A stretch of 64,000 nucleotides of DNA from Beroe forskalii (Eukaryota > Ctenophora > Nuda > Beroida > Beroidae): assembly GCA_011033025.1 (NCBI GenBank), contig WFMF01000039.1:124001-188000 (forward strand), read 5' to 3'. The position numbers and the translations under genes are program-made. Shown here in pieces: positions 33,701 through 42,700 of the stretch (positions are counted from its first letter, which is position 1; the number at the start of each line of letters is the position of its first letter). The notes under the pieces were generated by a model. The model searched no databases. It saw only the letters and a program-made list of their open reading frames with translations, and was not told the DNA's origin.

Positions 33701-36700
33701 TGCGAGGACATTGCACGAGGGTGCGAGGACATTGCACGAGGTGCGAGGACATTGCACGAGAGTGCGAGGACATTGCACGAGGGTGCGAGGACATTGCACG
33801 AGAGTGCGAAGACATTGCACGAGGGTGCGAGGACATTGCACGAGGGTGCGAGGACATTGCCACATACCTGAGTTATCTTCTCCTCGATACTGTTCCTCGT
33901 GACGAATCTGTAGATCATGACCTTGTTGAACTGTCCGATCCTGTGAGCCCGGGACAGGGCCTGGATGTCGTTGTGGGGGTTCCAGTCGGAGTCGTAGATG
34001 AAGACCGTGTCTGCCGTTGCCAGGTTTATACCTGTGAGGAGGAAGGGGTGCCTGGTTAGTTATTCAAATTGTTTTGGTGTTTGGCATAAGATTTTTGACT
34101 TACTTTTTACTAAATTATGTTTTAGGAGTATCATTCAATCACTAATAAGGCCCTCTCATCAATGTCAAAATTCACAGAACAGCATTTGAATTAAAAGGGC
34201 GAACACTGAACAATTGACTGACCTAATCCGCCAGCCCTGGTTGAGAGCAGGAAGACAAAGCTCTGAGACTTGGGGTTGTTGAACCTATCAATAGCTTCCT
34301 GTCTGTCAGCCCCAGTGATAGCTCCGTCTATCCTCTCAAACTTGTAGCCCAAGTGGTCCAAGAACTCCTAGAGAGTGAAACAGGTTAGAGTCCAGGGATT
34401 AGAATGATTCAGCATTCATAAAGACTTCAAGAGACCATATTCAGGGTATGATGGTTATCATTAATCACAGATAAGATCAAAGATCATCAGATTAGATCAA
34501 AGGGCGAAACAATCGAGGACTTTATCTCATTCACTGCACTTTCAAGCCTCACACTTCACAACATGCCCCACCTCGAGGAGATCCAGCATGATCCTCATCT
34601 GGGAGAAGATCAGGACTCTGTGACCTGTCTCCTTCAACTTGGCCAACATCTTCTTCAGTAGAATCAGTTTACCGGAGCCCTGGATCAGAGCAGCTCCTTC
34701 GTACCCGCCGAACCGGTTCTTGGGGGCTGCCTGCAGTGGGAAATAAGAGGTTAGAGGAACCTGTTGAGATGGGATATGGGACGTTAGAGGAACCTCATGT
34801 GGGCGGGGGGAGCTATTTGTGAAGAGGAATTTTGCAAATAATTGATAAAAAGTTGTAAACAATATATGGGGGAACTGACCGCTGCTCCCGCTGCGACGAG
34901 GTAGGCGTGGTTGCTGCACTTCTTTAGCTCCATCATGATGTTGATGAGGGAGCAGTTACCGTAGCCCTTAGCTGTGAGGGCCTCGTAGTTCCGGGTCAGG
35001 ATCAGCTTGTAGTACTTCCTGACGGAGAAAGTCATATATGAGGAACGGTATTGGGGAATTCTGCAAGGAAAGAAAGTCATATGAGGAACGGTATTGGGGA
35101 ATTTAGAATTTCACAAAGAAATACTTCCTGACTGGGATAGGGATATTTGGGAGTTTTAAGACTAAATCAAACTCCGAAATGTTTCCTTCCTGACGGGAAG
35201 AGAGATATAACTCCAATAATTGAGGGATTACATTACCGAAACCCTCACAAACTCACTTCTGTTCCCTGGACAGCTCCACTCTGACGAGACACTCTGACTT
35301 GGCTGGGATGTCAGTCAACACGTCCTGTTTGAGTCTCCTCAACAAGTGGGGCGACAGCAGCTCGTGAAGTTTCTGAGAGAAAATTTGTCAGGAATTTGCG
35401 AGGAATTTACGGAGAAATCATTATTTCGTAATTGAGATTTTCGATTGGCCAATTGCGGTCCATTGCAACAAATGGCGAGAATATGACAGAATTGCAACAG
35501 AGGAAACAATAGATATTTAGTTATCGTCAAAATCCGAAACCCATCCCGAACCTTGACTTGTTCCTCCTTGCCGATGTTATCGAACTGGTTCTGGAACTGC
35601 TCAAGGGAACTGAAAGTCTTGCTCTCCATGAAGTTCAGCAAGTGGAAGAGCTCCTCTAGGTTGTTTTGGAGCGGTGTACCCGTCAATAGCAGACGATACT
35701 CAATGGGGTACGCAGTCAGGGTTCTGAAATACAGAGACAAAAGTTGGGTTAGGGTTCTGAAATACTGGGAAAAGGTGGGCCAGGGTCCTGAAATACTGGG
35801 ACAAAAGTTGGGTTAGGGTTCTGAATTACTGGGAAAAGGTGGGCCAGGGTCCTGAAATACTGGGACAAAAGTTGGGTTAGGGTTCTGAAATACTGGGAAA
35901 AGGTGGGCCAGGGTCCTGAAATACTGGGACAAAAGTTGGGTTAGGGTTCTGAAATACTGGGAAAAGGTGGGCCAGGGTCCTGAAATACTGGGACAAAAGT
36001 TGGGTTAGGGTTCTGAAATACTGGGAAAAGGTGGGCCAGGGTCCTGAAATACTGGGAAGAAAAGGTGGGTTAGGGTTCTGAAATACTGGGAAGAAAAGGT
36101 GGGTCAGGGTCCTGAAATACTGGGAAGAAAAGGTGGGTCAGGGTCCTGAAATACTGGGAAGAAAAGGTGGGCCAGGGTCCTGAAATACTGGGAAGAAAAG
36201 GTGGGTTAGGGTTCTGAAATACTGGGAAGAAAAGGTGGGTCAGGGTCCTGAAATACTGGGAAGAAAAGGTGGGTCAGGGTCCTGAAATACTGGGAAGAAA
36301 AGGTGGGTCAGGGTCCTGAAATACTGGGAAGAAAAGGTGGGTTAGGGTTCTGAAATACTGGGAAGAAAAGGTGGTCAGGGTCCTGAAATACTGGGAAGAA
36401 AAAAAAAGGTGGGTCAGGGTCCTGAAATACTGGGAAGAAAAGGTGGGTCAGGGTCCTGAAATACTGGGAAGAAAAGGTGGGTTAGGGTTCTGAAATACTG
36501 GGAAGAAAAGGTGGGTCAGGGTCCTGAAATACTGGGAAGAAAAGGTGGGTCAGGGTCCTGAAATACTGGGAAGAAAAGGTGGGCCAGGTCCTGAAATACT
36601 GGGAAGAAAAGGTGGGTTAGGGTTCTGAAATACTGGGAAGAAAAGGTGGGTCAGGGTCCTGAAATACTGGGAAGAAAAGGTGGGTCAGGGTCCTGAAATA

Positions 36701-39700: not shown

Positions 39701-42700
39701 TGTGATAGGAGGGTGAAAAGATACGAACATGTTATCACAGAGTCGAAACTAGTATCTTTTGATGACGCTGATTTCGATTACTTATATACCAATTCATTCA
39801 TTCATTCCATCCCTGATCCATTCATTACCATGTGGGTGGAATTCCAGCGTTGATCATGAGTTTGATGTTGGGATCACTGAACTCCCCCACATCCTCCACC
39901 TCCTCAAGACTCGGGGGCGGCTCCCCCTCACTCTTACGCAGGTAGTTCCTCAGCTTAGAGTTGCAGAACACTTCCAACTGAGGGGATGGGAGGGTTAGGA
40001 TATGTTAGGGGGGGGGGCACCCCTCGCTCTTACGCAGGTAGTTCCTCAGCTTAGAGTTGCAGAATACTTCCAACTGAGGGGATGGGAGGGTTAGGATATG
40101 TTAAGGGGGTCCCCTCGCTCTTACGCAGGTAGTTCCTCGAGCTTAGAGTTGCAGAACACTTCCAACTGAGAGGATGGGAGGGGTTAGGATATGTTAGAGG
40201 GGCGGCTCCCCCTCACTCTTACGTAGGTAGTTCCTCAGCTTAGATTTGCAGAATACTTCCAACTGAGGGGATGGGTGGGTTAGGATATGTTAAGGGGGGG
40301 GGCGGCTCCCCCTCACTCTTACGTAGGTAGTTCCTCAGCTTAGAGTTACAAAACACTTCCAACTGAGGGGATGGGAGGGTTAGGATATGTTAAGGGGGGG
40401 GTTTCCCCTCGCTTTTACGCAGGTAGTTCCTCAGCTTAGAGTTGCAGAACACTTCCAACTGAGGGGATGGGAGGGTTAGGATATGTTAAGGGGGGGGGGG
40501 CTACCCCTCGCTCTTGCGCAGGTAGTTCCTCAGCTTGGAGTTGCAGAACACTTCCAACTGAGAGGATGGGAGGGGTTAGGATATATGTTAGAGGGGGGGC
40601 TCCCCTTCACTCTTACGCAGGTAGTTCCTCAGCTTAGAGTTGCAGAACACTTCCAACTGAGGGGATGGGAGGGTTAGGATATGTTAAGGGGGGCACCCCT
40701 CACTCTTACGCAGGTAGTTCCTCAGCTTAGAGTTGCAGAACACTTCCAACTGAGGGGATGGGAAGGGTACAGAATAGAGTCCCAAAGACCGAAGTGACTG
40801 AAATCTGGATCAAGAAATTTCAAGGAACACAACTCAGGTTCAGGATGTTGGGCACAGGCCACACCTAATAATCGTAGTGGCCCTGAATGAAATATCCACT
40901 GTTCCGTGGATTGAGATTCTACCGTACACCCCCCTCATAACCCACAATCCAGTAATCCCAAAGCTGTAATCCCAACTCAACTGAACTTCCTGAACCCACT
41001 CGCACCGCCAGTAGCTGAGGTTGTGGAACTTGACCAGGAATTCCCGCTGAGTCTTGCTCTTCTTCTCGTCCTTTCCGTCCTGTTCCTTGTACCGCCACGT
41101 GATGAAGGACTGCACTTTACCCGTCAGAGGGGGCACTGAGGGAGAGGGGGAATATGTTTAGGGGCACAAAAATAATTTGCAGATGAAGAAATGCTCTAAA
41201 GACTTCAAAAATTGGCCAGTTTATTCAATAACAATTCATGTTCAATACTTAGAATTTCATTCTTACGACTATTTTTTTCAGAAAAATGTCATGATATCAT
41301 TCGAATTTTTCAAACAAAAGTGCGATAGCGACTTTTCATCGGAAAGCAACATCAAGAAAATTTCACCTCTCACACCTAGAGTATTATTTTTGAATTTTTG
41401 GTCCGCGTATATCTCTAAAACTTAGGTAAACGAGTACATCATTTCCAGTAAACATTGGATATATCTCAGTATCTCCATGTCCTTCATCAGTACAATGTGT
41501 ACTAAACAATATACACATGTACAATGTACATACACAGAGTGTACAGTACACAATACCAGCTGGTATTCTGTTCCATGAAATTTCATTATATATGTTAGTC
41601 AACATCACCCGTGGAAAACACAGTGTTTAATAAGATGCTACATATATCATATATGGAATATTATAGCTTTACGACAGACCAATTAGAGCTAGATTTGATG
41701 TCACTTGACCGAGACGAACCAATGGGAGGCCAGCTCGTGACGTTAGTCAACCAATGAGCTCGTTGAACGATAATTATCTACACAGTGCTCAACACATACA
41801 AAATATATAATATGAATTAGATGTCCATATAAGGAATAATGGTGGTAGGGAGTGTAACGGTGTATCTATTCAGTATTCTCCTTCTAATGCGACGGAAAGC
41901 AGCACTACTATTTGAAAACGTGGGCTAAAAGCACGGCTTAAACTGGGAGTCCTGAAAACCTCTAAAAACCCCCAAAAACTGAGATATGAAATGAGATGGG
42001 GAATTCCTTGGGTTTAGATCATGTTTTAGGTATTTGGGTACCTAAACCTTGCAGCGATATGCCTACTTACCTAGCTGCTTCTTGAACTCAACGGGCTAAA
42101 AATTTTCCTTCATGAATATAGATTTTATTAATAAGATGACATGTCAAATGTGTAGATGCTCCTTCAAAAATATGGCAAATGCTCCTTCACAAACAGTACT
42201 AAATTCTCCTTTGCAAACATAACAAATCCTCCTCCCACTTACGGCGCATCTCTCGCACTGCCACTTCCCGTTGGGGACCTCCTCCAGGGGTGGGTTAGTA
42301 CACTTCAGATGGTAGGCGCTAGTGCAGTTCTCACAGCACAGCAACTCCCCTCCGTCCTTACCTAGATGAGGGTGAGAGGTGAGGAGAGGGAATGGTAGCT
42401 TAAAAACTAGATAAATAACATAGGTATTCATGGACTCATGGTAACAAAATCTGAAATTGAAACAGGTTTCACTAATATAAAATCTTCGAATATGGGGCAG
42501 ATTCCACTTCCAATGAAGCTACGAAATCATCCCAGTATGAGACAGTGTCCTTACATCGTTTGCAGAAGTCAACGTGCTCATCGTCCTCTTCTTCCCCAGC
42601 AGAACTACCATCCTCATCCTGGCGAGAATAATGACGTCATTTAACCTGATCTACAGTTCATGTTCATCAATTTGATGATAAGAATTGGCTACAAGTGGTT

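Follow-up and report, generated by a model that had tools for sequence, protein, structure and literature searches.

Tandem repeats that run across exon-intron boundaries are known in amphioxus under the name of mirages: according to the accessible portions of two reports (PMC3087553, PMC3902484), they can involve either border of an intron, and many of their units carry splice signals. The same portions mention mirages in Adh3, in the globins BflGb6 and BflGb9, in troponin C and in PGBD5, and those of Adh, troponin C and globin are reported there as leaving splicing undisturbed. Their length is unstable and they were proposed as a source of new introns (PMC3087553, accessible portion). We describe here repeats of this type in the CHD4 gene of the ctenophore Beroe forskalii, which lies on the minus strand of a 64,000-nucleotide (nt) stretch of contig WFMF01000039.1 (positions 124,001 to 188,000, hereafter the window), in a genome assembly of 216 Mb and 1134 contigs. 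As in mirages, the units span exon-intron boundaries, at acceptors in CHD4 and at acceptors and donors in other loci, and AG or GT is kept in many units. Pooled over arrays, most differences between the exon-derived parts of the copies are silent in the reading frame of the exon itself, which suggests that such arrays probably go on trading sequence with the exon edge in use.

The literature searched, which takes in few subscription papers, yielded among the papers listed no account of mirages beyond lancelets, and no paper there joined mirages with synonymous variation and gene conversion. One candidate, PMC9912274, was rejected: the word means a class of transposons there.

Arrays A and B of CHD4

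The gene assignment is firm for the helicase part, whose spliced sequence matches CHD4 (6ryr) with an E-value of 7e-167 over residues 1-383 of 387. A first-pass annotation of this DNA had proposed that minisatellites of CHD4 are built from a polypyrimidine-AG followed by the first codons of the next exon, and this composition is indeed found in five sets, of about 56, 9, 5, 2 and 3 copies. The two largest, arrays A and B, and the exons that flank array A are the following.

35731..37621, (-): array A, about 56 units, mostly of 31-39 nt, TATTTCAGRACCCTRACCCACCTTTTCTTCCCAG, i.e. the YFRTL exon start plus polypyrimidine-AG
35552..35764, (-): CHD4 exon downstream of array A; its expected edge at 35731 is without AG, and only the AG at 35764 is open and in frame
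37766..37970, (-): CHD4 exon upstream of array A, ending in KNNRSL; GTGAGT follows its end
39913..40768, (-): array B, nine copies 92-100 nt apart, CCCATCC(C/T)CTCAG plus exon start; the real exon starts at 39977

Array A had been credited with about 55 YFRTL copies. Tandem Repeats Finder delimits it at 35715-37621, with a period of 34, 56.5 copies and 92% matches, and 57 junction units are counted on the minus strand between 37621 and 35731 when the exon's own copy is included, 55 of them after CCCAG. A AACCCTAACC variant recurs at every fourth unit in the middle of the array, forming a higher-order pattern. The nine copies announced for array B were likewise recovered: nine LEVFCNSK copies with a period of 96, counting the real exon. 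Whole-genome searches with pieces of array A returned at least 18 matches, all inside array A on contig C458, and those with pieces of array B at least six, all inside array B on the same contig; among the matches listed, there was no second genomic place for either. Both arrays thus look like local products and not like members of a dispersed family.

The intron of array A contains 112 AG sites scoring at least 6 bits. The copy closest to the exon is nevertheless without AG: it has TCTCTG where the other copies have TCCCAG. Given the upstream donor, the AG at 35764, one unit upstream, is the sole in-frame and stop-free AG left, and its use would add 11 residues to the protein. When the exons are joined at 35731, on the other hand, the ungapped alignment to CHD4 6ryr runs through NNRSL-YFRTL. 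Read from the sequence, the missing AG would mean either that one unit has been added to the exon, or that splicing is non-canonical here, or that the assembly carries two substitution errors.

The hexamer TCTCTG stands at two places around this array: at 37766-37771 (-), where it ends the upstream exon, and at 35732-35737 (-), before the exon-proximal copy without AG. This sharing is possibly a trace of intron gain or of exon growth, and possibly due to chance.

The synonymous signature of exon-derived copies

Similar border arrays occur in eight other loci among those examined: L006 (doubtful), L009, L010, L016, L017, L018, L019 and L028. Our sample comprised 25 loci selected with no view of their own sequence: 20 lay close to multi-exon Helicase_C matches and four close to AAA matches, and one (L024) was a filler. 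Three loci near kinase matches were added later as a replicate. Genes were modelled with our own dynamic-programming predictor, trained on 2,343 codons of the window and on textbook splice frequencies; judged by eye, CHD4, SPT6 and many helicases were rebuilt well and the models of L010, L020, L024 and L029 were poor.

From the window and these eight loci, 16 border arrays were hand-picked for a usable frame, the frames being read by eye from models and sequence. For each of them only distinct variants were counted, transitions were given a weight of 3 and the expectation was drawn from the array's own codons. Copies with indels or with less than 80% ungapped identity were dropped (60% in L010, where copies were also filtered by the preceding bases), so that eight of nine copies were used in array B, 55 of 57 in array A, 19 of 23 in L009-3 and 45 of about 67 in L017. 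Array C of CHD4 was left out for its indels, L007, L012, L027, L029 and one L028 array for want of a second copy, and the 30-nt array of L016 for want of variants; L030 and L032 gave no row.

In the true frame, 43 of the 73 variants are synonymous when 21.1 are expected, a number that none of 20,000 simulations reached (P < 5e-5). The two wrong frames give 14 of 64 (18.0 expected) and 11 of 67 (19.8 expected). The excess holds for transitions alone (36 of 46, against 17.4). Array B is the clearest case: its eight alignable copies differ at ten exon-derived positions, and at nine of these the change is silent in the exon's own frame; without this array, 34 of 63 variants are still synonymous for 18.3 expected. 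As a control, seven non-border arrays were read in all six frames: 133 of 534 variants were synonymous for 143.3 expected and no frame reached P < 0.01, the lowest single value being 0.0498 in 42 tests.

The signature remains with the intronic copies alone. When the real exon copy is removed, 13 arrays remain—D, L009-2 and L018 fall out, with one intronic copy each—and 36 of 65 variants are synonymous for 19.1 expected. Ten of these arrays have spacings that are not all multiples of three, and they give 30 of 55 for 16.4 expected (P 5e-5); L009-1 was counted there as untranslatable though its main period is 57. Intronic copies in shifted frames should vary at any codon position. Since they do not, we read many of the variants as having arisen while the sequence served as the coding edge of the exon, or as having gone through that edge. 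As far as we know this coding signature in intronic copies is new, and it is the part of the present data worth following.

Several observations nevertheless weigh against an exchange between exon and intronic copies, or limit its extent. The signal is held by arrays of fewer than 20 copies (35 of 49 synonymous, 14.3 expected), a split made after seeing the data; the three arrays of at least 20 copies show no coding signature (8 of 24, for 6.8 expected), the 67-copy array of L017 looking neutral (2 of 10). Among the nine arrays tested singly, only B (7.9e-5), L019 (0.007) and L009-3 (0.025) fall below 0.05; L009-1, L017 and L006 are flat or lean the opposite way, L009-4 and L009-5 have one non-synonymous variant each, and the sets of two and three copies yield few variants, in part by comparing the exon with a single copy. 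Besides, no polarity appears in array B, whose copies differ from the exon by 0, 1, 3, 2, 3, 3, 21 (by an indel) and 2 changes (rho 0.61, P 0.11), and no trend in L009-3 (rho -0.28, P 0.20). The copy of array B farthest from the exon is precisely the one identical to it, so a simple outward conveyor starting from the exon is not supported. Finally, everything comes from one assembly, known from DNA sequence alone.

Other arrays and their position on genes

The remaining repeats of CHD4 in the window are the following.

39104..39375, (-): array C, five divergent GTCTAGAAGA copies (LEEALEDY), the real exon copy near 39111
37943..37980, (-): D, real copy, TTTTCAG plus exon start
38113..38150, (-): D, decoy copy, same exon start with one synonymous difference, TAT/TAC
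23966..24330, (-): E, three copies 148 and 159 nt apart, polypyrimidine-CAG plus exon start, the real exon near 24018
24329..25096, (-): polypyrimidine minisatellite, about 19 nt x 40, upstream of E; sequence type like the intron half of E
33279..33860, (-): F, 21 nt x 27 copies, beginning about 8 nt into the intron after a donor (KITQ, GTATGTG)
35015..35200, (-): G, a weak case read by eye, two short upstream echoes of a GTCAG-GAAGTA acceptor plus a two-copy duplication of the intron

Several GLEEALEDY copies and a two-copy exon start had been noticed at first sight; they correspond to the five divergent copies of array C (39111-39362) and to the EHEFSYSED copies of D, which start at 37972 and 38142. 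A fourth array had been placed at 23968-25380. It corresponds to the three exon-start copies of E, of which the last is the exon near 24018, next to a 19-nt polypyrimidine array at 24329-25096. No exon sequence was seen by eye in array F, and the echoes of G share only about 9 nt, so that they may be a chance match. The exon at 39030-39111 (-), read by eye, keeps its frame only if two single bases are corrected in a stretch of about 90 nt: these are probably indel errors of the assembly, the alternative being a damaged exon-proximal copy of array C.

Outside CHD4, locus L009 holds CHD1 (E 1e-120 to 9ear). In about 6 kb of this gene (960-6990), no fewer than five arrays span a border: 27 donor copies (NFKALAKEK), 23 acceptor copies (RLDGGVKGEVRAQALDHFN), two smaller acceptor arrays and one further donor array. 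In a DEAD-box-like helicase gene, L017 2314-7425 contains 67 copies of a 77-nt acceptor unit (GLDIPSVSCVINYNTP). The array of L019 is at a donor and those of L010 and L018 are at acceptors, the clear donor-border cases being L009 and L019. In L028 (6240-6435), five copies of a 38-nt unit hold a whole short exon with both its splice sites (EYIKHQFIP).

Other repeats were seen on the way. L009 carries at 8033-9861 46 copies of a 40-nt unit with ACCCAG-GTGGCG, and L032, close to a kinase gene, a 335-nt satellite of about 12.7 copies (1-4118). In the window, a large minisatellite of about 31 nt (GAACCAGGGTGGACTCTGGGTTGGGGACAGT) occupies 17591-19930, outside the arrays described above, and between 13 and 10000 repeat calls recur at an offset of about 5.0-5.2 kb (3788-3966/8824-9001; 4631/9675; 13-481/5229-5629), pointing to a segment of about 5 kb duplicated in tandem.

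The first-pass annotation had proposed for the CHD4 arrays a mechanism, or a tolerance, specific to exon-intron borders and more particularly to acceptors, and had called for tandem arrays to be intersected with exon borders genome-wide. It had also placed each array right before a catalytic or chromatin-binding exon; most of CHD4 is made of such domains. In the 28 loci, tandem arrays cover 43,898 of 278,401 bases (15.8%). Three coarse tests found no enrichment. Splice-motif scores, compared with dinucleotide shuffles, reached P <= 0.025 in either motif for four of 111 units, about 5.6 being expected (taken singly at P <= 0.05, nine of 111 for donors and four of 111 for acceptors). Pfam-defined exons had an array within 150 bp in 10 of 37 cases, for 11.1 under random placement. 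Of the 30-mers centred on splice junctions, 13 of 285 at acceptors and 10 of 284 at donors had a second copy in the same intron, the figures for interior positions being 16.74 and 16.65; the interior control is confounded here, because arrays built from borders fill the interior of the intron, and a per-array seed model was therefore used. The CHD4 exons had been hand-corrected before the 30-mer test and the first run of the seed model.

With the seed model, 18 of the 85 intronic arrays of the 28 loci span a border for 11.2 expected from random seeding (P = 0.013), an excess of about 1.6-fold that depends on our own gene models; with the window added, 20 of 101 do so for 12.4 (P = 0.008). One L016 array was entered at two borders, and the count leaves out the acceptor arrays of L010 and L017, placed by eye, and C, D and E of CHD4. 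The three fresh kinase loci, taken as a replicate, were flat: 2 of 9, for 1.6 expected. A preference of arrays for borders is thus possible but weak. As for acceptors, the 18 cases divide into nine acceptors and nine donors, some on uncertain gene models, so that the preference for acceptors proposed from CHD4 is not seen outside this gene. In a genome so dense in minisatellites many arrays will straddle a border by chance, and a border-specific mechanism is not needed to explain their positions.

The only COX1 match of the assembly lies on a contig of 13,339 bases and reads through with code 4, AGA standing, by eye, at what we take, by its motif, to be a conserved arginine. Cephalochordates read AGA otherwise. 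ARAGORN, run in three modes, found no transfer RNA (tRNA) in this contig. Ctenophore mitochondrial genomes are described, in the accessible part of PMC6991124, as fast-evolving, without tRNAs and with this code. By its sequence the contig thus appears ctenophore-like and not cephalochordate, a foreign origin being conceivable in principle.

A probable exchange with exon edges, alternatives and known systems

We favor, as the probable explanation, mirage-type minisatellites in continued exchange with the exon edge in use. A short tandem duplication would happen to span an exon-intron junction and would then expand into the intron, where additional copies may be nearly harmless provided that the exon body retains one complete copy at its edge. 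The copies would be repeatedly templated from the working edge, or converted with it. Unequal exchange or gene conversion, possibly acting between alleles, would be the means, and the array would in this way come to sample past or allelic versions of the exon. Another ctenophore, Hormiphora, has a heterozygosity of about 3.2%, single bases and indels together (PMC8527503, accessible part). In very long arrays copying within the array might dominate, and the coding signature would disappear. Splicing could tolerate the decoys if, under exon definition, the splice site at the other end of the exon is matched with whichever copy lies closest; should this nearest copy decay, as in array A, the next one would take over and the exon would grow by one unit. 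More tentatively, and with less confidence than for the exchange itself, we suggest that exon edges in this genome may be members of a locally copied family: introns would keep synonymous edges that were once functional, and a splice site could shift between copies and lengthen the protein, a process that might be in progress at array A.

Could chance alone suffice? Many minisatellites and short introns would let some arrays start at junctions, the exon half of the unit having no special history. The share of sequence filled by arrays, the null motif, Pfam and 30-mer tests, the equality of acceptors and donors and the small size of the excess over seeding all agree with this, and chance may be right about where arrays start. 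As a complete account it is rather unlikely, for a synonymous excess confined to the true frame, absent from the wrong frames and from the non-border arrays, is not expected under plain intronic divergence. The same excess could be read as selection on each copy, if copies serve as alternative acceptors or small exons in some transcripts. In this direction, a polypyrimidine-AG is kept in nearly all copies of A and B, the L028 unit is a complete short exon, and the main period of L009-1 and L019 is a multiple of three. At the opposite, seven of the eight acceptors of at least 6 bits in array B meet a stop before the exon body, the last one alone being open, and six of the eight are out of frame; array A has only one in-frame open AG, and the signature persists where spacings are not all multiples of three. 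As the acceptors of A and B (in B those of at least 6 bits) are, with one exception in each, out of frame or bound to a stop, direct selection on each copy becomes less likely, and we hold this second possibility to be quite unlikely.

Two further explanations deny that the arrays are real, or that they are local. One or two true copies might have been falsely expanded by the assembly, in which indel errors probably exist, given the corrections required by the exon near 39040-39111. We consider such an artefact very unlikely: the copies differ from each other, array A has its higher-order pattern, independent arrays occur in many loci, and errors should not favor synonymous sites. Introners, for their part, carry splice sites. 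They copy themselves into many genes (PMC9860276, accessible part), and a family of introners or transposable elements might insert at exon borders in the same way. With no match elsewhere for the pieces of A and B among the matches listed, and with each unit made of its own local exon edge, we regard this origin as extremely improbable.

With mirages in several genes and a coding signature in their copies, exchange between exons and intronic repeats becomes readable from sequence, and a path suggested to lead to new introns, shifted splice sites and short insertions in proteins can be put to a direct test. A further question is how a spliceosome facing dozens of good acceptors in one intron chooses one of them, if it does.

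Among known systems, introners resemble the present arrays in that they multiply introns or splice sites in a genome; they form dispersed families of near-identical members, whereas A and B match only themselves among the matches listed. Intron gain by tandem or internal duplication, as in the potato RdRp gene (PMC4974935), also involves a tandem duplication bearing splice sites inside a gene, but here existing borders are multiplied and no new intron is seen. The arrays of dual-specific AGGT sites, such as the polyubiquitin gene UBC (accessible part of PMC10809524), share with ours a splice signal in each tandem unit; ours differ by junctions that read CAG-TA in A and CAG-TT in B, by frame shifts and stops, and by a single open acceptor in each. 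AG-GT does occur at the junction in some arrays other than A and B. The mirages of amphioxus are the closest. The differences are of size (6 and 3 copies in the two BflGb6 haplotypes of the accessible text, about 56 and 67 in the largest arrays here); of number, with five sets in CHD4 and five in CHD1; and of host, a ctenophore instead of a cephalochordate. The mirage reports known to us cover a few lancelet genes; the present arrays extend to several genes of a ctenophore genome, and their copies, pooled over arrays, carry a signature of coding constraint at the synonymous sites tested here.

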